Source: Geitlerinema sp. PCC 7407
GTDB lineage: Bacteria; Cyanobacteriota; Cyanobacteriia; PCC-7407
Reading direction: 5' to 3'
DNA length: 64,000 nt
Assembly (NCBI RefSeq): GCF_000317045.1
Contig: NC_019703.1
Location: 2,220,501-2,284,500, forward strand
Under the pieces are notes generated by a model. It saw only the letters and a program-made list of their open reading frames with translations, ran no database searches and was not told the origin of the DNA. The stretch's first letter is position 1, and each line of letters begins with the position of its first letter. Below are positions 1 through 34,064 of this stretch, piece by piece. A program made the translations under genes and the position numbers.

Positions 1-114
1 CTCCTGTAGAGACTCGTTGTATTTCATCATGGCCTCAACCGCCTTTGCATCCGGCATCGCTCCTGGAGCGGCATTCTCGTAACCCTTGGGAATCATGAGC
101 AGCATAAATCGCAT
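1..114 (-). CDS. YCII/DGPF-family protein, 3' part outside window
   Basis: The first 38 codons are visible from an ATG at 114, opening MRFMLLMIPKG; the rest lies left of the window. This opening beta strand followed by a PDAKAVEAMM helix is typical of YCII-related (DGPF) proteins, small dimeric ferredoxin-like folds whose biochemical role is mostly unknown. It lies 66 bp downstream of a second DGPF gene on the same strand, and both diverge from an ECF sigma gene. DGPF genes are the standard neighbours of ECF42 sigma factors, so this is probably the second gene of an ECF42-controlled operon. The DGPF motif itself would lie in the missing part. Confidence 0.75.
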   Translation of the reverse strand, partial: MRFMLLMIPKGYENAAPGAMPDAKAVEAMMKYNESLQE

Positions 115-180
115 ATAGATCTCCTTGGTTCTCGGGTTCTCGGAAGAGATTGTGGACAGTGAATCGGGGCGATCGGCAGC

Positions 181-564
181 CTAAAGGGAAAGAGAGCGAG
201 AAAACGCGGTCGTTTCTGGCAGGCCTGCAACTTCGATCACAGGACGGATTTCAACTGTGCCCACTCGCGCACCTGGAATCTGAGAGGCGATCGCGATCGC
301 CTCATCGAGATCCTGAGCATTAACGAGGAAGAATCCGCCCAGCTGTTCGCGGGTTTCGGCAAATGGGCCGTCCGTTACCAGTGGTTTGCCGTCACGCACG
401 CGGACACTCGTCGCCGTGGACACGGGATGGAGAGGAGTGGCTGCGAGATACTGTCCTTTGGCGTCGAGCTCTTGGGCGAGCTGGGTTGATTCCCCATAGC
501 AATGCTCTCGTTCGGCTTCGCTCAGGACGTTTTCGTCGGTATAAATCAGCAGCAAATATTTCAT
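181..564 (-). CDS. YCII/DGPF-domain protein
   Basis: This 127-residue protein opens MKYLLLIYTDE and contains the family signature DGPFAETREQLGGFF around residues 64-80, which defines YCII-related DGPF proteins. They are soluble, small and of unresolved chemistry; some relatives bind or degrade small molecules. The start is well supported by GGAGG 9 bases upstream (574-578). Two ECF-type promoter elements lie just upstream (583-617 and 664-698), and the divergent neighbour is an ECF42-like sigma factor. That is the conserved arrangement in which the sigma factor drives the DGPF genes. The family call is firm; the function is open. Confidence 0.9.
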   Translation of the reverse strand: MKYLLLIYTDENVLSEAEREHCYGESTQLAQELDAKGQYLAATPLHPVSTATSVRVRDGKPLVTDGPFAETREQLGGFFLVNAQDLDEAIAIASQIPGARVGTVEIRPVIEVAGLPETTAFSRSLSL

Positions 565-582
565 GCGCTTGCCTCCTTTATC

Positions 583-617
583 AGTCAGTCGAGCGGGGAT
601 TGCTCAAATCGACAGCT
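583..617 (-). promoter_or_regulatory. ECF42-type promoter, copy 1 (gene-proximal)
   Basis: On the minus strand the element reads AGCTGTCGAT, 15 bases, then TCGACTGACT. TGTCGA (609-614) and TCGACT (587-592) are 16 bases apart, a normal -35/-10 spacing for an ECF promoter. From memory, published ECF42 work describes a TGTCGA -35 and a CGA-type -10 ahead of DGPF genes. The -10 is about 20 bases from the start codon at 564, leaving a short leader that carries the GGAGG ribosome site. The same two boxes recur with identical spacing at 664-698, which supports function. Confidence 0.65.
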
Positions 618-663
618 CGCTAAAATTTTTCAATGAGTACGATCGAGCTTTGCCTCTTTTGTA

Positions 664-698
664 AGTCAGTCGAAGGAAAGCAGATCAGATCGACAGCT
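664..698 (-). promoter_or_regulatory. ECF42-type promoter, copy 2 (distal)
   Basis: This is a second copy of the promoter element 81 bp further from the DGPF gene, with identical 10-base boxes (689-698 and 664-673 on the minus strand) and an unrelated 15-base spacer. Similarity runs on past the -10 box into a TGCCTC/CTTTT stretch (about 648-660) matching the ribosome-site region of copy 1 (568-580). This suggests that a promoter plus gene start was duplicated and a further DGPF gene was later lost. It could still be active as a second start point or sigma-binding site. Confidence 0.55.
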
Positions 699-776
699 TT
701 AGATAAATCAAATTATATAGTACAACTGTTCTGTCTTGTCGTCGACACCCAGTTCAAAAAACTTTGATGTCTTTTC

Positions 777-2045
777 GTGACAGCTATGACTTCACCCCTA
801 CAGGCAGATGTCACCCAAGCGATCGCACACACATACCGCACTGAGTGGGGAAGTATTGTCGCTATCTTGATTCGGTTAATCGGAGACTTTGAACTGGCGG
901 AAGAGGCAGCCCAAGAGGCTTTTGCCGCCGCAGTTAACCAGTGGAAAACCAGCGGTATTCCCGATCTTCCCCGCGCCTGGATTATCCGAACCGCTCGATA
1001 CAAAGCGATCGATCGCCTGCGACGACGAACGCGATTGGCCGAAAAGCTGGAGTCCTACGCGGCATCCGAGTTAGGAACGGCGAGCGAGGAACCCGCCTAT
1101 GACAGTGATGAGATTCCCGACGATCGCTTGCGGTTGATCTTCACCTGTTGCCATCCTGCCCTGGCGATCGAGACTCAGGTTGCATTGACTCTACGAATGC
1201 TGGGGGGACTAGAAACTGACGAAATTGCCCGCGCGTTTCTCGTACCGACCGCCACAATGGCGCAACGCCTCGTACGCGCTAAACGAAAGATTCGCCATGC
1301 GGGCATTCCTTTTAAAGTGCCTGAAACAACTGATCTCCCCCTCCGGATAGAAGCCGTACTAGCAGTCATTTATCTCATCTTCAATGAAGGCTACGCGGCA
1401 ACCAAAGGAGATTTGATGGCGCGGGCCGATCTCTGCACCGAGGCGATTCGGCTAGGGCAGCTGCTGCGACAATTGCTGGCCCCTCACCCCCCGTCTGAGG
1501 TCACGGCGCTGGTGGCGCTGATGTTGCTCCATGATTCGAGGCGAGAAGCCCGTCTAGATGCAGATGGCGATCTCATTTTGCTGGAAGACCAGGATCGAAG
1601 TCGCTGGAATCATCAACAGATTGCTGAGGCGTTACCCTTGGTCGAAGAGGCCCTGCGCGGCGGAACGGGGGTCTATGCCCTGCAAGCTGCGATCGCCGCT
1701 CTCCACTGTCAAGCGGCGATCGCCGAAGAAACAGACTGGGCGCAAATCGCGCGGCTCTATGAGGTATTGGAGCGATCGCAGCCTTCACCCATCGTGACCT
1801 TAAATCGGGCCGTGGCGATCGCGATGGCAGACCATCCTCAAGCAGCCCTAGATCTCATTGATAGGCTGACCCCAGATCTCGACAGTTACCATCTCTTTCA
1901 CGCGACCCGTGCAGACCTATTGCGGCGCATCGGAGCATTCGAGGCAGCAGCCCAGAGCTATACCCAGGCTCTACAGCTGGTTACCAATGACAGTGAGCGT
2001 CGCTTCCTAGAGCGTCGACTAAACGAAGTCCAGTCCCGCAGTTAG
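777..2045 (+). CDS. ECF-family RNA polymerase sigma factor, ECF42-like with TPR-type C-terminal extension
   Basis: The product has 422 residues from GTG 777; an ATG three codons later at 786 is an alternative start. Region 2 spans roughly residues 15-85 ([12 protein letters not shown], then [20 protein letters not shown]). Region 4 is near residues 125-175 ([25 protein letters not shown]). A long helical extension of over 200 residues follows ([12 protein letters not shown], then alanine-rich helical repeats), as in the SigJ/DUF6596-type ECF42 group. Ordinary ECF factors are about 190 residues, so the extension is diagnostic. No anti-sigma gene is adjacent; in this group the extension is thought to control activity. 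Divergent DGPF genes complete the ECF42 arrangement. Confidence 0.9.
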
Positions 2046-2184
2046 TTCAGCTAGGCAGCTTGCAGAAGTCGGGCTTGAGTAAGCCAAATATTTGCAAGAG
2101 ACCGGATTTAGAAAATAGCTTACAAGTTACTGATTGTTTACATCTTCTAGTCATGCCAGAGAGCATTATTCAAACCGATAAAAT

Positions 2185-2400
2185 CGCACTCACCCCTGTA
2201 ATGGCTTATCTCAGCTTAGCTTCGTTGAAAGTAATGAAGGCCACAAGGGACTTGATGGCACAAGCTAATCTGTGCACTTGGGTGATTTAGTTGGGGCAAC
2301 TGCACTACCAAGCAAAGCGCGTCGAAGAAACAGGCTAGGCTAAAAATCGCGCGATTTCATAAGGTATTGGAGCAAGTGATTTCTTTACCGAAAAGTTCAA
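2185..2400 (+). pseudogene. Decayed second ECF42 sigma gene fragment
   Basis: The stretch reads as a broken copy of the C-terminal half of the intact sigma gene just upstream. An AATGAAGG...GACTTGATGGCACAAGC block (about 2232-2264) matches 1382-1425, and the following LGQL codons match after an in-frame stop TAG (2288-2290). A block from GTCGAAGAAACAGGCT to AAGGTATTGGAGC (about 2318-2372) matches 1721-1773, with roughly 250 bp deleted in between. Frameshifts and stops remove any coding capacity. It is either a tandem duplicate or the remains of a second sigma/DGPF pair. Confidence 0.7.
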
Positions 2401-2433
2401 GCAATAAATTCAGCAGTACTTGAATGTTCAAGA

Positions 2434-3816
2434 TTACTTCCTGCCAAAGCAGATAGGACACCATGAACCAACGTTTTTGACGTTGTCAGGCCTCGCTTCC
2501 CACTCATGACCATAAGCACATTGCCATCTAAGCTTTGTTTGAGAACTTACGTATACATTTGACAGACATTTTCCGTTACGGCTGCTTGCGATCAGCTGCA
2601 TTTCCTCGATTGATCCTTTGCGACGAGCACGAGAACATTCTGGACACCAAGTGCCCTTCATAATATCTGTAGGTGCAGCAAACCACAGATGGCCTTGTTG
2701 ACACTGCCATTGATACTTATGATTTACAGATTGAAAGCTTTTCGATAAGAACTTTCCCTTTCTTTCTGCGGCTATCAACGCCATTGTTTCCACAGAGTGC
2801 TTTCTATTGCTCTTTCCAATTCTTTCTGGCTTACAATCTGGGCACCATGTTCTGATTTTTACGTTAGAGGCTGTTGCTTCCCATTCATGGCCTTTGGCAC
2901 AACGAAAACGATGTTTTTTGGTTGTGCCTAAATATTGTTTAGATAGACACTCACCACCTCTTTCGCGGGCAATTGCTTGCAGCTCTCTAAGCTCTGAACT
3001 AGGGAGGTAAGCACAGTCTTTATTGTGATGAATTTGCTTAAGAGTTGATGTAGGCAAAGTTTCACTTAATCTTCTGTATATCCAGGCAGCCAAATCATTT
3101 CTATCAATATAAAATGGCACTAAAATTAGCAATACGTTGTTTTGAGCGCATAATTCAATTTTTTGTCGATCATTTTCAATTCTTCTAGCAAAGGCATCCA
3201 AGGATCGACTAAAATAAGGCACCTCGTCATAGTGTTGCGATCCTTGATGCTCAAAAGCTATTTTTAAGGGCTCGCAGTAGCCATCAAGCTCCATACGATT
3301 TCCAAAGGAGTTTGTAAGCCATTTCGGCCTAATTTTTGGAAAGCTACAGCCAGTTATACTTTCAAAATAGTGACGACATAGGCGTTCTCGAACACCTAAG
3401 TTACACTCAGGGCACCAAGTTCCTTTCTTAACATCTGAAAATGCTGCCCGCCACTGATGACCATTCAAACACTTCCAAGTCATTGGGGTAGCAGCAGAAA
3501 CATAGTTATCTGATAAACACTCTCCTTCTCGGCTAGATGCAATTTTTTTAGCTTGATCCAAGCCATCAGAGAGTTTCAGATGTTTGCCAGCATGGTTTTT
3601 ATTCCAACATTGTCTACACCAAGAGCCAGCGAGGACTGAGCTTGGATTGGTTTCCCATTCGTGACTTTCTGAGCATTTAATTTTTATTAGTGTACGTTTA
3701 TTTACATATGAACTTTTATCAAAGTATCCTCCTTTAGATTCTATAATTTCTTGTACACGATTTGCCATGATCGCTCTTCGCTCAGATGGCGTATAGGAAT
3801 TAATGTGTCGGTTCAC
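2434..3816 (-). CDS. Zinc-ribbon repeat protein with embedded restriction-fold nuclease domain
   Basis: The 460-residue protein has five repeats of about 45 residues, each reading roughly GECLS..Y......W.C..GHEWEA....V..GTWCP.C (near residues 25-70, 92-138, 280-325, 333-380 and 393-440). Each repeat has cysteine/histidine pairs suited to a zinc knuckle. Between repeats 2 and 3 is a Vsr/homing-endonuclease-like core: MELDGY (D178), 10 residues, then FEHQG (E189-x-Q191), followed by HYDEVPYF. This resembles a PD-(D/E)xK site with Q in place of K. Such proteins are usually annotated as zinc-ribbon or homing nucleases and probably bind and nick DNA. The gene is AT-rich, lacks HIP1 sites and stands alone, suggesting transfer. 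The cellular role is unknown. Confidence 0.7.
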   Translation of the reverse strand: MNRHINSYTPSERRAIMANRVQEIIESKGGYFDKSSYVNKRTLIKIKCSESHEWETNPSSVLAGSWCRQCWNKNHAGKHLKLSDGLDQAKKIASSREGECLSDNYVSAATPMTWKCLNGHQWRAAFSDVKKGTWCPECNLGVRERLCRHYFESITGCSFPKIRPKWLTNSFGNRMELDGYCEPLKIAFEHQGSQHYDEVPYFSRSLDAFARRIENDRQKIELCAQNNVLLILVPFYIDRNDLAAWIYRRLSETLPTSTLKQIHHNKDCAYLPSSELRELQAIARERGGECLSKQYLGTTKKHRFRCAKGHEWEATASNVKIRTWCPDCKPERIGKSNRKHSVETMALIAAERKGKFLSKSFQSVNHKYQWQCQQGHLWFAAPTDIMKGTWCPECSRARRKGSIEEMQLIASSRNGKCLSNVYVSSQTKLRWQCAYGHEWEARPDNVKNVGSWCPICFGRK

Positions 3817-4003
3817 TTAGAATCCTTAGTAAAATTCTGGTTAAGAAGCAAGCAGGGCATAAGGTTTCATTCAATTTAGGGGTATCGCTCCTCAAAGGCA
3901 GCAAAAAGCTGCACAGATATATTTTGGCGAGATTAAATATCAACCCTTGCATATCTCAAGTATTTTTTAATATTTAGTTCAATGGTTTTTATAGAAACGC
4001 AAC

Positions 4004-4027
4004 AAAAAAGAGGCTTGTTAGCCTCTT
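4004..4027 (-). terminator. Rho-independent terminator of the WGxxGxxG gene
   Basis: A perfect 8-bp stem (AAGAGGCT at 4008-4015, AGCCTCTT at 4020-4027, loop TGTT) is followed on the minus strand by a run of six T. It lies 55 bp past the stop codon of the gene at 4082-4363. Confidence 0.85.
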
Positions 4028-4081
4028 AGGTTGGTTGGAAGGTTTTACAACACAAAGTCACAGCAATAAACGCCGCTCAAT

Positions 4082-4363
4082 CTAGTCGCGGTAGCTAGTG
4101 CCAGTGCCCGTCGTGCGGTGGACCTCAGGTTCGCGATAGCGGACATCGTCATCCCGCTTCTTGCCTGCCAGTCCTGCCAAGCCAATCAGGCCCAGCAAGC
4201 CTAACCATCCCCAGTCAAAAGCATCATTTGCTTGCACATCGGCTGAAGGAGTGGTGTCCTCAGGTGCGTTTTGGGCTGAGGCGCTCTGAGCCATTGGCAA
4301 CACACCAAGGCTGATGGACAGCAAACCAATACCCATTAGCTTGGTCAGATTAGAAAGCTTCAC
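4082..4363 (-). CDS. WGxxGxxG-type small exported protein
   Basis: The 93-residue product has an N-terminal signal peptide (hydrophobic GIGLLSISLGVLPMAQSASA, cleavage after ASA near residue 30). A short acidic linker follows, then the WGWLGLLGLIGLAGLAGKKR segment: the WG..G..G hydrophobic helix followed by basic residues typical of WGxxGxxG/CTERM-like sorting tails. A hydrophilic tail rich in R, E and T ends the protein. It is predicted to be membrane-anchored or surface-sorted; the family has no assigned biochemical role. GGAG lies about 9 bases upstream of the ATG. It is a single-gene unit with its own terminator at 4004-4027. Confidence 0.8.
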   Translation of the reverse strand: MKLSNLTKLMGIGLLSISLGVLPMAQSASAQNAPEDTTPSADVQANDAFDWGWLGLLGLIGLAGLAGKKRDDDVRYREPEVHRTTGTGTSYRD

Positions 4364-4980
4364 AGTTTTTCTCCTCTCTCAGTTGAGTATTCAACTTGAA
4401 CAATCTTGTCAAAATCTATTCAGTTTTGCCTTCTCTCATGAAGGAACAAATCAGGTTCTCTGACCGTTCTTTCCTCACAGTAGTCACCTGCCATTCATTC
4501 TCAATCAACCCTTAGCTAGAAACCACTAATTCTCGAAGGTATAACTAAAGAGATAGGGTGAAAATACAAAGCTTAACAAGAACAATATTCTTGACTCTTT
4601 TTTTGCTCAAAGCCTTATATTTGGTTTTATCAATACCGATAAGAGAGTATCAAAACTATTACTGAAATTCAGAAATTACTGAGTTAGGATTTAGCGTTTT
4701 TGACCTTTCACAGAGCAAACACGCACTTCTCTCACAGAGCAGCAGATACGCCGCTTGATCCATGCTGGTAGCCAAACCAAAATTGAGGCAATCTTGGCTA
4801 TTTGCCGCGATCGCACACACGCCAAAGTCTCCAAGCCTCAGGTCAGAGGTCCCTGGAGAACCATGCATCGAGTGAATAAGGGCGATCGCGGCTTGCGCAC
4901 CAATGGGAATCCCTGAAGGCGATCGCCTCTAACAAACGTATTCCAGACGCCCCAAAACTCCTCTAAGGGGCGATCGCGCT
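4364..4980. other. 617-bp intergenic region without a supported gene
   Basis: An AT-rich leader lies upstream of the WGxxGxxG gene (to about 4660), followed by HIP1-rich sequence. A 69-codon open frame on the minus strand (4659-4868) has no ribosome site, an unusual cysteine-rich duplicated LLCERSACLLCERS stretch and no recognisable fold, so I do not call it. Confidence 0.5.
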
Positions 4981-5124
4981 CTACTGAAGAAAAAAGCCGG
5001 CTAGCAGCAGCGGCAGCAGTAAGAAAGCAAAGACCACAAGGGCCAACGTACCGGGTTCAACGTTGACAATGTTGCGATCGACTTGTTGGTCTAGCTTGGA
5101 TTTCTCAGTTTCGGGATCGGTCAT
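4981..5124 (-). CDS. Small single-helix membrane protein (47 aa)
   Basis: ATG at 5124 to TAG at 4981 encodes a charged N-terminus (MTDPETEKSKLDQQVDRN) followed by one hydrophobic helix (TLALVVFAFLLLPLLLAGFF, residues 26-45) ending right at the C-terminus. The layout, a soluble head of about 24 residues and one membrane span, resembles accessory subunits of photosynthetic or respiratory complexes, but I cannot match it to a named Psb, Pet or Ndh subunit. It lies 76 bp downstream of moaE on the same strand. The coding character (clean start, good frame, hydrophobic design) makes it likely real despite its size. Confidence 0.6.
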   Translation of the reverse strand: MTDPETEKSKLDQQVDRNIVNVEPGTLALVVFAFLLLPLLLAGFFLQ

Positions 5125-5200
5125 TACTCGTCACCAGCTCGCCCTTTTTCCCCAACATCATACAGGCTCAGCCTTGGCGACAAGACTGCTACCGCTCCCT

Positions 5201-5692
5201 TCAGCAGCCCACCTCAGACTGCTCACACGCGCCAATGCTGACCCAGCTGCTCGAGCCGTCCTGCCAATGTTCCTTCTTCCAGATCGGCGCGTTGTGCTTG
5301 AGCGTGTCAATGGCATACTTGCAGGCCGCAAACGCCTCGCCCCGGTGGGGGCAGCCCACCGCCACCAAAACGCTCACCTCTCCAATGGAGAGCTTGCCCG
5401 TGCGGTGGTGAATGACCACGTGGGTCACCTGGGACCAGAACTGGCGGATCTCCGCAGCGATTTGCTGAAACACCGCGATCGCCATCGGCTCGTAGGCCTG
5501 ATATTCCAGGGCGACCACCGGCTTACCGTCCGTTTGGTTGCGCACCATCCCGCTCATCACCACGATCGCGCCGTTCGCCTGATCGTCCGCTAGGCGATAC
5601 ACCTCCTCGAGGGACAGGGGCGCAAAAGTCATTCGGAAGTCGTCCGCTGGATGGGTTGCGCGCAGCACGGCAGCAGTAGGCGTTTGGGTCAT
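5201..5692 (-). CDS. moaE: Molybdopterin synthase catalytic subunit MoaE
   Basis: The family match runs over about 145 residues: GAIVVMSGMVRN near the start, LEYQAYEPMA, then VVIHHRTGKLSIGEVSVLVAVGCPHRGEAF, and IWKKEHW near the C-terminus. The last carries the catalytic lysine region that meets the MoaD thiocarboxylate. MoaE transfers sulphur from MoaD to precursor Z (cPMP) to make the molybdopterin dithiolene, in the cytoplasm. The open frame extends upstream to 5788, but that stretch is low-complexity and cysteine-rich; the ATG at 5692 (MTQTPTAAVLR) gives a normal length of 163 residues. No moaD is adjacent. Confidence 0.93.
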   Translation of the reverse strand: MTQTPTAAVLRATHPADDFRMTFAPLSLEEVYRLADDQANGAIVVMSGMVRNQTDGKPVVALEYQAYEPMAIAVFQQIAAEIRQFWSQVTHVVIHHRTGKLSIGEVSVLVAVGCPHRGEAFAACKYAIDTLKHNAPIWKKEHWQDGSSSWVSIGACEQSEVGC

Positions 5693-6557
5693 TGGGAAAT
5701 GAGGTAAGAAGGCCAGAGAACAAAGAACACAGAAAAGACGAGCCCCAGAGGCTGAGCAAGCTGAGCAACAAAACTCGGGCGATCGCACGTCTCCCGCTTC
5801 TACTATATCTCCCCAACAGCCTAGTACCGCGCGGCCTTACCCACCCTCTTTTTCAGGCAGATTCCCGCAGTCTTTGGCCTTCGGAGAAACTCAACACCAG
5901 CAGCCATACCCTAGCTTCTTATATTTTTCAAGATTGTTCGTTTCTAGGAATAAGAATTTATCAACTCTTGATCACATTCAATACCCAAACCGATTGGATA
6001 TATCAATTAATAGATTAAAACACAACCAATCATGAATTATCAATTGTTGACTTTCTAAAGCTTTAATTAAAATTTCAAAAAATTAAAACTTGAACTACTG
6101 CCTAGAATCCTTGTAAAACTGAGCTTTTGGAGTTTTACAATCTCGCCTAGACGAACAACTCTTCAATTTTGTTCCAGTGCATTAAATGTTTTTCTAGATT
6201 AGAAATTTAAAGTCATTTTCCTGGGTAGACGGGATCAAAGAAATACGTTAATCTCTTCTTAAACACGAGAGAAGCAAGGAAAAATTGACAAAAAACTTTC
6301 GACACAAAACCTTCAAAGCAAGGGGTTACTAACAGCAAGCCAACATTTTTAGTTTATTTCCCAAGATTGAGACAGACAGCAGCAAACTCTGCAAAAAGGT
6401 AGATGTTGAACCGTGCTGTCTGTGAACCAGTCCAATGATTTATGCGGCCACAGCAGCGTCCTGTCAGCCCGCCAGACGGCATCTCCCATCGGTTCCTTTT
6501 GCCTTCTCTAGCCGCGATCGCTCATTTTCCCACTTTGTTATCTATTTCGAGGTTCCG
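5693..6557. other. 865-bp intergenic region between moaE and the glycan cluster
   Basis: From about 5900 to 6360 the sequence is strongly AT-rich, with no convincing open frame and no HIP1 site. It should hold the divergent promoters of moaE and of the glycosyltransferase block. The clearest internal structure is a 10-bp inverted repeat at 6372-6423, listed separately. The annotated glycosyltransferase start at 6558 was chosen over an upstream in-frame ATG at 6435. Confidence 0.6.
6372..6423 (+). promoter_or_regulatory. 10-bp inverted repeat ahead of glycan cluster
   Basis: ACAGACAGCA (6372-6381) and its exact reverse complement TGCTGTCTGT (6414-6423) are separated by 32 bases. The repeat lies 134 bp before the first glycosyltransferase start. 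It could be a long-loop RNA hairpin in the 5' leader or a pair of protein half-sites. No T-run follows, so a simple terminator is unlikely. Confidence 0.45.
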
Positions 6558-7865
6558 ATGAACAAACTTTTGCCCCCTGTTTGTTGTGACGCTCCGCAAC
6601 CTCTCTCCAGCCCGCCGCTCCGGCTAGGTGCTTCCTCACCACGCTCCACGCAAAACAGCCCCTCCCCCGCCCGACGCTGGCGGATCGCCCTGTACTCCCA
6701 CGACACCATGGGCCTAGGGCACAAGCGACGCAATCTGCTGATCGCCCAGACCTTGGGAGACTCCGATCTCCAGGCTGATATTTTGATGATCAGCGGCATG
6801 CGGGACGCCAGCAGCCTGCCCACACCCCCCGGCGTAGACTGCCTCACCCTTCCTGCGCTCTACAAGCACACCGACGGCCAGTATCAATCCCGCCGTCTCG
6901 AGATTTCCCTAGCAGAAATTATTAGCCTGCGATCGCAGGTGATCTGTAGCGCTCTCCAGGCGTTTCAGCCCGATATCTTCATCGTTGACAATGTGCCTCG
7001 GGGCGCTGTGCGAGAGCTCGATTTGGCCCTCGAATGGCTGCATTTGCACAGCCACACTCGCTGCATTCTGGGGCTGCGCGACATCCTTGACGCTCCCAGC
7101 ACCATCCAGCGAGATTGGCAGCGGGACGCCAACGAAGAAGCCATTCGCACCTACTACGATGAGGTTTGGGTGTACGGCGACGCCCAAGTCTATGACATCA
7201 CCGCCGCCTACGGCTTCCCAGCGGATGTCACGGCCAAAGTTCACCATTTGGGATATCTCGATCAGCGGCATCGCCTCCAGCACGCCCGCCCCCGAGATTA
7301 CGATCTGCTCCACAGTTTGCAGCTGCCGCCCGGCGAGCTGGTTCTGTGCACCGTTGGGGGCGGCCAAGACGGCGCGAATCTGGCTCTGGCTTTTGCTCAG
7401 GCGCAGCTTCCACCCAACACCAACGGCATCATTGTGACTGGTCCCTTCATGCCAGCGGAGGCACGCCAAAAAATCTCTCTCTACGGACAGAGCAATCCCC
7501 GCCTGCGGGTGCTGGACTATGTGGAGGAACCGACGCTGCTGCTAGATCAGGCCGATCGCGTGATTGCCATGGGCGGCTACAACACGGTTTGCGAAATTCT
7601 CTCCTTTGAGAAGCAGGCGCTCATCGTGCCCAGGGTGCAGCCCCGCCAGGAGCAGCTCATTCGGGCTGAGCGCCTGACAGAAATGGGGCTCATCAGCATG
7701 CTGCATCCGGATCGGGTAACGCCCGAGGCGATCGCCCAGTGGCTCCAGCAGCCCAGAGAGACGCCGAAAGGCCGCGATCGCCTGAATCTCCAGGGCTTGC
7801 AGGCTTTACCCCAGCGCATTCTTCAGATCTTGGCAAAGCATCACCCTGCCCAAGAAGTCTCTTAA
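6558..7865 (+). CDS. COG4671-type predicted glycosyltransferase (MurG/GT28-like fold)
   Basis: The 435-residue protein has a two-Rossmann GT-B layout. The N-terminal half has RIALYSHDTMGLGHKRRN (glycine loop, about residues 40-57) and FQPDIFIVDNVPRG. The C-terminal half has LCTVGGGQDGA, GIIVTGPFM and ADRVIAMGGYNTVCEILSFEK, a sugar-nucleotide-binding GGYNT-x-E motif like that of MurG. The product is probably a cytoplasmic glycosyltransferase. The ATG at 6558 is preceded by GAGG and removes a serine/proline-poor false extension from 6435. It is the first gene of a co-oriented block of three glycosyltransferases, an ABC exporter and a kinase. The substrate is unknown. Confidence 0.8.
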   Translation: MNKLLPPVCCDAPQPLSSPPLRLGASSPRSTQNSPSPARRWRIALYSHDTMGLGHKRRNLLIAQTLGDSDLQADILMISGMRDASSLPTPPGVDCLTLPALYKHTDGQYQSRRLEISLAEIISLRSQVICSALQAFQPDIFIVDNVPRGAVRELDLALEWLHLHSHTRCILGLRDILDAPSTIQRDWQRDANEEAIRTYYDEVWVYGDAQVYDITAAYGFPADVTAKVHHLGYLDQRHRLQHARPRDYDLLHSLQLPPGELVLCTVGGGQDGANLALAFAQAQLPPNTNGIIVTGPFMPAEARQKISLYGQSNPRLRVLDYVEEPTLLLDQADRVIAMGGYNTVCEILSFEKQALIVPRVQPRQEQLIRAERLTEMGLISMLHPDRVTPEAIAQWLQQPRETPKGRDRLNLQGLQALPQRILQILAKHHPAQEVS

Positions 7866-7978
7866 TTTCATCCCCCGATCTTTTGCCCAAGCCTCTTGTT
7901 GACCAACGGCGTCGGAAACGGCTTCCTTCCTGAGTTCCGGCGCTTTGGGTCTGTCCTTTTGAACCTTTGAAGTGATTC

Positions 7979-9301
7979 ATGAGCCGCGTATCTACTCTCT
8001 CTCCGCGAATTGGCTATGTCCTCAAGCGCTATCCTCGATACTCTGAAACCTTTGTGGTTCAGGAGATCTTGGCCCATGAGGCGGCTGGCTTAGATATTGA
8101 GATATTCGCGCTGCGTCCCCCGTCGGATACCCATTTTCAGGACATCATTGCCCAGGTGCGCGCCCCCGTCACCTATCTGCGCAAACCCACCCAGGGGCGC
8201 GTCAGCCCTTGCCTCACCAGCGATGCGCCCACCGCAGCGAGCTATTTTTGGGCAGAGCTGCAAGAGGCCAGTCAGCTCATTCCCCAGTTCTGGCAAAAGC
8301 TGGCCGCCGCCGAAGGAGAGAGAGCCAGTACCGTCTATCAGGCGGCTTGGCTCGCGCGGGAAATCATTCGCAAAGAGATCTCTCATCTCCACGCCCACTT
8401 TGGCACCGTGGCCACCAGCGTGGCCCGTCTAGCCGCTCACTTCACCGGCATTCCCTACACCTTCACAGCCCACGCCAAAGATATCTTTCACGACAGCATC
8501 GACCCCGCCGATCTCACCCGCAAGCTCCAAGATGCCGCCGCCGTGATCACCGTCAGCGACTATAACGTGGCCTATCTGCGCGATCGCTACGGTGAGGCCG
8601 CCGCCAAGGTCGAGCGCATCTACAACGGCCTGCCCCTCGAGCGCCTGCCCTACCAGTCTCCCGAAGCGCGATCGCCCCGCATTCTCTCTGTCTGTCGCCT
8701 GGTGGAGAAAAAGGGAGTTTCAGTCTTGATCGAGGCCTGCGATCGCCTGCGGCAGCGCGGCCTTCCCTTCTCTTGCGAGATCATCGGCTCCGGCCCCCTC
8801 GAAGCGGCTCTCCAGTCCCAGATCACCACCCTGGGTCTGACGCCCTGGGTGAAAATTCTCGGTCCCCGGCCCCAGGGCGAAGTCTTTCAGCACCTCCAGC
8901 AGGCCGCCGTGTTCGCCGCGCCCTACATCATCGGCCAGGACGGTAACCGCGACGGCCTGCCGACGGTCTTGCTGGAGGCCATGGCCCTGGGAACGCCCTG
9001 CGTGGCCACCGATGTGACCGGCATTCCGGAGGTGGTCCAGCCGGAGATCACGGGGCTGCTGGTGCCCCAGGGAGACGCCGCCGCCCTCGCCACCGCCCTC
9101 GAGCGCTTGCTCCAGGACGCCCCTCTGCGCACTGCTTTGGCCGCCCGAGCCCGCGAAAATCTAGAAGCTCAGTTTGACATTCATCGCAATGCGGCCCAGC
9201 TGCGATCGCGCTTTGGGCTATCGGGAGCGTCCCCTGCTGCTAGCGAGTCCACCGACCTACTAAACGACGCACCCTCTCCCAGCACTGTCAGCGTCTCATG
9301 A
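7979..9301 (+). CDS. Glycosyltransferase family 4
   Basis: The product has 440 residues. The N-terminal Rossmann domain begins RIGYVLKRYPRYSETFVVQEI, the usual start of GT4 enzymes related to colanic acid WcaL. HLHAHFG and PYTFTAHAKDIF follow. The C-terminal domain carries ILSVCRLVEKKGVSVLIEA and the EX7E region (DGLPTVLLEAMALGTPCVATDVTGIPE). The enzyme is predicted to be a retaining cytoplasmic transferase using a nucleotide sugar. It is separated from the previous gene by 113 bp and followed after 49 bp by another GT4 gene. The poorly ordered serine-rich tail after about residue 415 is unremarkable. Confidence 0.9.
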   Translation: MSRVSTLSPRIGYVLKRYPRYSETFVVQEILAHEAAGLDIEIFALRPPSDTHFQDIIAQVRAPVTYLRKPTQGRVSPCLTSDAPTAASYFWAELQEASQLIPQFWQKLAAAEGERASTVYQAAWLAREIIRKEISHLHAHFGTVATSVARLAAHFTGIPYTFTAHAKDIFHDSIDPADLTRKLQDAAAVITVSDYNVAYLRDRYGEAAAKVERIYNGLPLERLPYQSPEARSPRILSVCRLVEKKGVSVLIEACDRLRQRGLPFSCEIIGSGPLEAALQSQITTLGLTPWVKILGPRPQGEVFQHLQQAAVFAAPYIIGQDGNRDGLPTVLLEAMALGTPCVATDVTGIPEVVQPEITGLLVPQGDAAALATALERLLQDAPLRTALAARARENLEAQFDIHRNAAQLRSRFGLSGASPAASESTDLLNDAPSPSTVSVS

Positions 9302-33293: not shown

Positions 33294-34064
33294 TCAAGGC
33301 ATCAAATCAGTAATATCAACATTTTCCAATTCGATAGCCTCTATGAAAGCAGTATTCTCAAAGACTTCATTCCAAAATCCATAAAATCTTTTTTTCTTTT
33401 CTATCTTATTTGAGCAATTCATTATTTTTCTAATATCAGACCTGCCAATACGAATAACATTAAATCCTTGACGTTTCAGAAATAGATCCTTGCGACAATG
33501 AAGAGCATATCCCTCTTCATCAACTTTATAGCTTTTCGTTCTCTCATTATATTTCGCATAATGGGAGGGGCCATCTATTTCAATAATTGTAGTTTTACCA
33601 CTTTCAATGGACTTGTGTTTGAGCAAGAAATCTACAATGTAGGGTTCTTCTTTTTTACTTCGTTCATTTGGCTTAGAGTACCAATTTACATATACATTCG
33701 GCACTAAGGCTGGGCCAATGGCTGGAGGTTCACTAAAAGCACCTTCTATTGATATTGAAACAAACATGTTGAAAAAGAAACGTTCTACATCTGATTTCTC
33801 ATTACAGAAAGAATGAAGTTCATCGAATAAATTATTGAGTGGATACTCATGCTGCTCTCGCTCATCCGAGTTATTTATCCATAGAGACCATTTCTGTCTC
33901 GTTGCATCATCCACCAAGTCGAGCCATCTTATATCTTCTTTAGCAAGAATTACAGACTTAACACCAGAAAACTTCATATCAAGATGACCATCTGGTGTTT
34001 GTGTTAGGTGTTCTAATGCTGGTTGACAGAAGCAGCCAGGCCTTCCATACAAAAATACTCTCAT
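33294..34064 (-). CDS. Putative PD-(D/E)xK-type nuclease, AT-rich
   Basis: The C-terminal half of this 256-residue protein has YIVDFLLKH (D145), 16 residues, then TIIEIDGPSHY (E162-x-D164-G), followed by KRQGFNVIRIGRSDI. This succession (strand with D, strand with E-I-D-G, helix, strand with V-I-R-I) is the layout of DUF559/Vsr-like nucleases. The N-terminal half (residues 1-115) is unrecognised. The gene is much more AT-rich than its neighbours and lacks HIP1, a strong sign of transfer. It has no partner methylase and no visible toxin/antitoxin companion. Role unknown; a mobile or defensive nuclease is plausible. Confidence 0.55.
   Translation of the reverse strand: MRVFLYGRPGCFCQPALEHLTQTPDGHLDMKFSGVKSVILAKEDIRWLDLVDDATRQKWSLWINNSDEREQHEYPLNNLFDELHSFCNEKSDVERFFFNMFVSISIEGAFSEPPAIGPALVPNVYVNWYSKPNERSKKEEPYIVDFLLKHKSIESGKTTIIEIDGPSHYAKYNERTKSYKVDEEGYALHCRKDLFLKRQGFNVIRIGRSDIRKIMNCSNKIEKKKRFYGFWNEVFENTAFIEAIELENVDITDLMP

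Follow-up and report, generated by a model that had tools for sequence, protein, structure and literature searches.

What does a putative nuclease gene with finger repeats on both sides of its catalytic core do in the chromosome of Geitlerinema sp. PCC 7407, and how did it come to be there? The gene occupies positions 2434–3816, minus strand, of the 64,000-nucleotide stretch of DNA that was analysed (termed the window), and is assigned here as a whole to the treble-clef/Vsr-core (EDxHD-type) endonucleases. It encodes 460 amino acids from a GTG start codon, and the sequence AGGA, read directly from the DNA, is found 6 nt upstream of that codon. There is one copy in the 4,681,111-base genome. 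A sequence-only reading had described a nuclease domain embedded in five zinc-ribbon repeats, and had proposed a homing or DNA-repair endonuclease.

The pattern C-x3-H-x-W/F...W-C-x2-C is present five times in the protein, at residues 48–70, 116–138, 306–328, 372–394 and 433–456, whereas none of 20,000 shuffled versions of the sequence contains it even once. The earlier count of two repeats before and three after the core is thus upheld. All repeats are on the minus strand. Repeat 1 extends over 3595–3762 (residues ∼19–74; pattern ligands C48, H52, C67 and C70) and repeat 2 over 3397–3558 (residues ∼87–140; C116, H120, C135 and C138). On the other side of the core are repeat 3 at 2827–2991 (residues ∼276–330; C306, H310, C325 and C328), repeat 4 at 2626–2793 (residues ∼342–397; C372, H376, C391 and C394) and repeat 5 at 2443–2610 (residues ∼403–458; C433, H437, C453 and C456). 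Pfam DUF4379, labelled 'Probable Treble clef zinc finger', matches four stretches of the protein (E 2.9e-21; 75.9 bits vs a gathering cut-off of 24.5), the best of which is repeat 5. In the full-length AlphaFold2 model (mean pLDDT 89.8, pTM 0.60), each repeat forms a beta hairpin and then a helix that starts at or beside the CxxC. Treble clef is therefore a better name than zinc ribbon, because of both the Pfam label and the hairpin-helix shape in the model; the repeats stand, and the name first given to them does not. The fingers would be expected to bind zinc. DUF4379 domains are also known from another setting: mt-SAF33, a DUF4379 protein, is chain Fd in trypanosome mitoribosome assembly structures (PDB 6sga/9hny), and this type of finger therefore also works outside nucleases.

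The Vsr/EDxHD-type nuclease core lies between repeats 2 and 3 (3052–3396, minus strand; residues 141–255) and contains E144, D178, E189, H190, H195 and D216. Its conservation was assessed in an alignment of this protein and 40 others, the 41 being taken from 77 distinct core open reading frames and hand-picked for completeness and spread, with reading frames from the genome-search loci left out. In this sample, no variation is seen at E144, D178, A187, F188, E189, G192 or H195; the aspartate of D216 is kept in 40 of the 41 sequences and the lysine of K219 in 39. Position 191 is occupied by Q (22 sequences), N (13) or H (6), and position 190 by H (21) or Y (20). Of the motif D178...E189-x-Q191 that had been proposed from the sequence, D178 and E189 are confirmed by their invariance and Q191, with 22 of 41, drops out; the motif also overlooked E144, H195 and D216, and so was not complete. 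The EDxHD motif consists of active-site E, D, H and D in that order. The core has the conserved order E-D-x-H-D, represented by E144, D178, H195 and D216, an order read from the sequence alignment.

Structure prediction, which had been put forward as a check, gave a core-only model when the core was folded with relatives (pLDDT 93.5, pTM 0.86). Solved structures were compared by VIA re-alignment of the first 1000 Foldseek chains. Among these chains, rank 1 is Escherichia coli Vsr with DNA (1cw0_A; Z 10.3, rmsd 2.6, 106 residues aligned), rank 2 is the EDxHD homing endonuclease I-Bth0305I (3r3p_A; Z 9.8, rmsd 3.2, 95 of 97 residues aligned) and rank 3 is free Vsr (1vsr; Z 9.6, rmsd 2.5, 103 aligned). 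These three scores amount to a tie. A Toxoplasma mitoribosomal protein comes next at Z 9.0, less than 1 below ranks 2 and 3; further matches are an endonuclease-like protein, 3hrl (Z 8.8), and FASTKD4 (Z 8.4). With the full-length model, Vsr holds ranks 1 and 2 by VIA (Z 10.0 and 8.9), and I-Bth0305I is absent among the best 50 matches listed. Foldseek without VIA gave no matches at E ≤ 0.001 for either model, and sequence searches of solved structures produced no match to Vsr or I-Bth0305I and no relevant nuclease. As modelled, then, the core has the Vsr/EDxHD nuclease fold, and the check agrees with the type of enzyme that had been suggested.

Both of the nearest structures differ from the protein outside the fold. 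In an hhalign alignment with E. coli Vsr, H190 falls opposite H64, H195 opposite H69 and D216 opposite D97; its probability is just 0.9%, so that the alignment speaks for register and not for kinship. PMC11879112 names D51 and H69 as an active-site pair of Vsr. Unlike the present protein, however, Vsr is a short repair enzyme without finger arrays, and its gene is beside dcm. I-Bth0305I, which would share the catalytic fold with the modelled core, comes from a phage and, according to PMC3943268, binds DNA through regions of other kinds; it has no sequence match to this protein. The same paper ascribes a two-metal type of hydrolysis to EDxHD enzymes. The resemblance in fold extends to the order of active-site residues, the motif being compared by name: we take the active-site positions of I-Bth0305I to follow the EDxHD order. 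I-Bth0305I and the family were reportedly first described in Taylor 2011 and Dassa 2009.

The mitoribosomal proteins seen in these comparisons raise the question of whether the protein binds RNA or is associated with the ribosome. Mitoribosome structures include RAP proteins that are Vsr-like as well as a protein with DUF4379, the repeats resemble chain 9hny_Fd (56 residues aligned, rmsd 2.7, Z 4.9), whose chain name is that of the DUF4379 protein mt-SAF33, and the core resembles the Toxoplasma protein and FASTKD4 at the Z scores given above. Yet the active-site residues are invariant in the 41 aligned sequences, which suggests catalysis, and relatives are encoded at viral loci, so a role of this kind appears very improbable. 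Still harder to credit is an HNH endonuclease, the name that PHROG gives to its phrog_559. This family is the best PHROG match to the protein (E 7.7e-53), several phage records are labelled in the same way, and one of the 41 relatives matches Pfam HNH (E 0.0033); but no Pfam HNH model matches the protein itself at E ≤ 1, and the modelled fold of the core is Vsr-like. The other PHROG matches are phrog_7140, 'intron encoded nuclease' (E 2.5e-6), and phrog_9084, 'homing endonuclease' (E 3.5e-4).

Relatives of the core are found in phages. The core profile matches four of five phage proteins tested, with E values from 6.3e-12 to 1.1e-19. These are iepA and iepB of phage Twort, the 'VSR homing endonuclease' of phage Quidividi and the 'homing endonuclease' of Bacillus phage BvP. 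By annotation, the two Twort proteins are encoded by introns of the terminase gene, and the Quidividi gene sits within a terminase gene that two introns interrupt. In all, 78 loci on viral contigs encode relatives. On one viral contig (L083) two Vsr-core endonuclease reading frames, 1853–3313 on the plus strand and 3301–4641 on the minus strand, are convergent and overlap at their 3′ ends.

The joining of such repeats to a Vsr core is already in print. According to PMC12350094, certain phage-intron homing endonucleases have three to five CapR/DUF4379/DUF723-like domains of ∼60 amino acids and an EDxHD/Vsr-like nuclease, which the paper places at the C-terminus; its four cases come from group II introns. 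The protein studied here is like these enzymes in its CapR/DUF4379-like repeats and its EDxHD/Vsr-like nuclease. It differs from them in having its nuclease between fingers and in being encoded by a seemingly free-standing gene in a bacterial chromosome. The same applies to phage relatives: Twort iepB and the Quidividi endonuclease have repeats before the core, some of them weak (E 0.0008–0.17), whereas in both Twort proteins and in Quidividi the nuclease is last and the gene is annotated within terminase introns. In the literature searched, mostly passages of papers, no enzyme was described as having a finger array on each side of its core.

How common this arrangement is was estimated with a finger profile built from 32 repeats and counted at E ≤ 0.01. 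The loci were drawn by similarity to this protein, so the counts do not describe the family at large. Among 71 complete, distinct core open reading frames, 34 carry fingers both before and after the core, 30 only before it, one only after it, and six have none detected. Finger number varies from 0 to 9, and the exact layout of two plus three is present in 3 of the 71, this protein being counted. Of the 41 aligned sequences, 35 match DUF4379 and 17 match CapR (E ≤ 0.01).

Repeats of the same type also occur with what may be another type of nuclease. Klebsiella phage KpV79 gp54 (L128, 2456–3292), the fifth phage protein tested, has, like the present protein, DUF4379 repeats in three stretches (E 5.2e-16); unlike it, gp54 has a T5orf172 domain at its end (E 2.4e-8) and a GIY-YIG match below threshold. 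Two annotated DNA polymerase pieces flank its gene. A reading of gp54 as a relative that splits a polymerase gene was dropped, since the protein does not match the Vsr core; it is used here for the repeats only. In the match listing, Escherichia phage ZCEC13 covers the KpV79 stretch with 2133 bases where the query has 2958, and is thus without most of the insert.

Evidence for mobility comes from two viral contigs, L093 and L117. They have four genes in common, in the same order and at ∼75% identity, of which the fourth is represented by only 207 bases in L117. L093 carries its endonuclease gene between genes 3 and 4, and L117 between genes 2 and 3. Neither contig has an insert at the site used in the other: there the matched flanks are 12 and 35 bases apart. 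The two endonuclease genes are 70% identical in DNA. This pattern is the behaviour of free-standing mobile endonuclease genes. By the custom profile, from which the finger counts of both proteins were taken, the L117 endonuclease has three fingers; Pfam DUF4379 gave no match to it at E ≤ 0.01. When 96 pairs of flanks were compared between loci, the two comparisons of L093 and L117, one in each direction, had the gaps of 12 and 35 bases, and further comparisons had gaps of 120 to 373.

Relatives in four genomes (G008, G060, G576 and G496) revealed no clean empty allele, the flanks being one-sided or separated by other DNA. The genes of G008 and G060, which belong to different families, are 73% identical in DNA vs 67% for a neighbouring G060 gene that is also in G008. 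With one gene compared, this excess of sequence identity is a hint of possible transfer.

The distribution of the gene is patchy in both phylum and class. Matches to the whole protein are present in 12 of 386 genomes of the phylum and matches to the core in 9 of 388 genomes of the class, its own genome being counted in each; the family and the order are represented in the genome set by this one genome. One core relative (L163, 5877–7022, minus strand), without a Pfam match at E ≤ 0.01, lies downstream of what by eye appear to be ndh genes, and congeners match the ndh stretch, after which the sequence differs.

Base composition is also unusual. The GC content of the gene is 0.411 vs 0.541 for the window, and its GC3 of 0.328 (median 0.648) is the second lowest among the 37 open reading frames of at least 200 amino acids in the window. 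It contains no HIP1 sites, a weak sign, as 86 of 1253 stretches of the same size also have none. The gene looks as if it entered the chromosome from outside, with phage or other bacteria as the inferred origin. The lowest GC3 of the 37 reading frames, 0.293, belongs to a 256-amino acid open reading frame at 33294–34064 (minus strand), which has a RAP domain (E 1.7e-5) and a DUF559 match below threshold, and which may be another nuclease-like gene of foreign origin in the window. In two Thermosynechococcus strains, PMC9403480 reports a DUF559 gene that belongs to the EDxHD family. Elsewhere, at 6107–6594 of locus L027, there is a DUF559 gene (E 9e-32), pieces of which recur many times in related genomes in the manner of a repeat.

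Spread and composition bear on whether the enzyme serves its host, as a nuclease of DNA repair or defence that makes a Vsr-like nick at mismatches or restricts phage while its fingers read DNA. The core is as close to the repair enzyme Vsr (Z 10.3) as to I-Bth0305I (9.8), and the gene stands alone in the chromosome, both of which such a role would allow. On the other hand, there is no methylase among the four neighbours examined, and a PADLOC scan of the protein alone found no family for it at E ≤ 1. The patchy occurrence, the odd GC and GC3 values, the annotation of relatives in introns and the reciprocal empty sites of L093 and L117 likewise count against a host function, which is considered unlikely, and they agree with a homing endonuclease of Vsr/EDxHD type.

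The neighbours examined are, on the left, genes for a YCII protein and for a sigma factor with DUF6596 and, on the right, genes for a 93-amino acid protein and for MoaE. All of these open reading frames are whole. Downstream of the sigma-factor gene (777–2045) there is a decayed partial copy of it at 2206–2390 on the plus strand (nhmmer E 5.9e-9 and 1.9e-5), which has a local alignment score of 69 vs a maximum of 39 in 200 shuffles and which ends 43 bases short of the 3′ end of the endonuclease gene. The landing of the endonuclease gene may have broken this copy. A remaining half was not found in the right flank at 3817–4081, where the score is 20, a value reached by 185 of 200 shuffles. Over 3817–5200 a score of 37 was obtained at 4882–4977, but 5 of 200 shuffles scored as high and the alignment contains many GCGATCGC-like sites; a search of the right-hand stretch with the sigma profile gave nothing. 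Insertion of the endonuclease gene into a sigma gene was considered as well, but an intact second half of the sigma gene was not found to the right; since the sigma profile finds nothing there and the right flank has no convincing counterpart, such an insertion is not claimed. Three genomes encode full-length sigma proteins with 81–83% identity, and in these the similarity in DNA ends at the sigma stop codon (0.4 to 1.5 kb compared).

An intron around the gene was also looked for. An Rfam search of positions 1–8000 of the window gave no matches at E ≤ 1, a search that also misses the annotated Twort and Quidividi introns, and at E ≤ 10 positions 1900–4400 gave only weak matches to unrelated families. 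Rfam searches of 14 loci and of 20 of the 78 viral loci likewise found no introns, but because the method misses the control introns these negatives say little. Rfam 15 is blind to the terminase introns of Twort and Quidividi (L125 and L126) at gathering scores and at E ≤ 1 alike. The neighbouring reading frames are whole, and this argues against an intron around the endonuclease gene. The earlier remark that no intron adjoins the gene is not contradicted by this insensitive search. There is no sign that the gene lies in an intron or an intein, and it seems to be free-standing. In the literature, intergenic endonuclease genes that stand free are described as generally common.

The gene is accordingly read as a free-standing homing endonuclease of the Vsr/EDxHD type, with a probability of about 0.8. 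This reading is favoured because of the fold match, the invariant residues, the intron annotation and empty sites of relatives, and the odd composition. Of the two functions first suggested, homing or DNA repair, an endonuclease in this general sense, with presumed extended DNA recognition, is supported by the match of the core to Vsr and I-Bth0305I, by relatives in introns and by the reciprocal empty sites. Flanking the core, the treble-clef fingers would bind a long specific DNA target, and the Vsr-fold core, with E144, D178, H195, D216 and metal ions, would cut it. Repair from the gene-bearing allele would then copy the gene into the cut site.

The enzyme may also be a decayed or domesticated homing endonuclease, with its frame intact and its homing lost. 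This alternative overlaps with the preferred one and differs from it on present activity; it applies within the probability given for the homing type, of which it takes the smaller part, and is possible but not the expected state. Homing genes commonly decay once they are fixed, and the present gene is a single copy in its genome and adjoins a decayed copy of a sigma gene. However, the frame is complete, and nothing is missing from the five finger patterns or from the conserved active-site residues. The failed intron control leaves the odds of the homing type and of its loss unchanged, because these rest on the core and on the relatives.

The gene alone alters no established view, as its kind of homing endonuclease is already in print. 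A broader proposal, rather doubtful at present, is that of a two-armed modular homing nuclease, in which arrays of fingers grow and shrink, another nuclease type is joined to such fingers (T5orf172/GIY-YIG-like, in KpV79 gp54), targets shift by gain and loss of repeats, and the sigma copy was wrecked on landing. If this is true, the modular arrays, with 0 to 9 repeats, would resemble a natural zinc-finger nuclease. The spread of repeat number among the relatives makes them convenient material for studying how arrays of treble-clef fingers recognise DNA.
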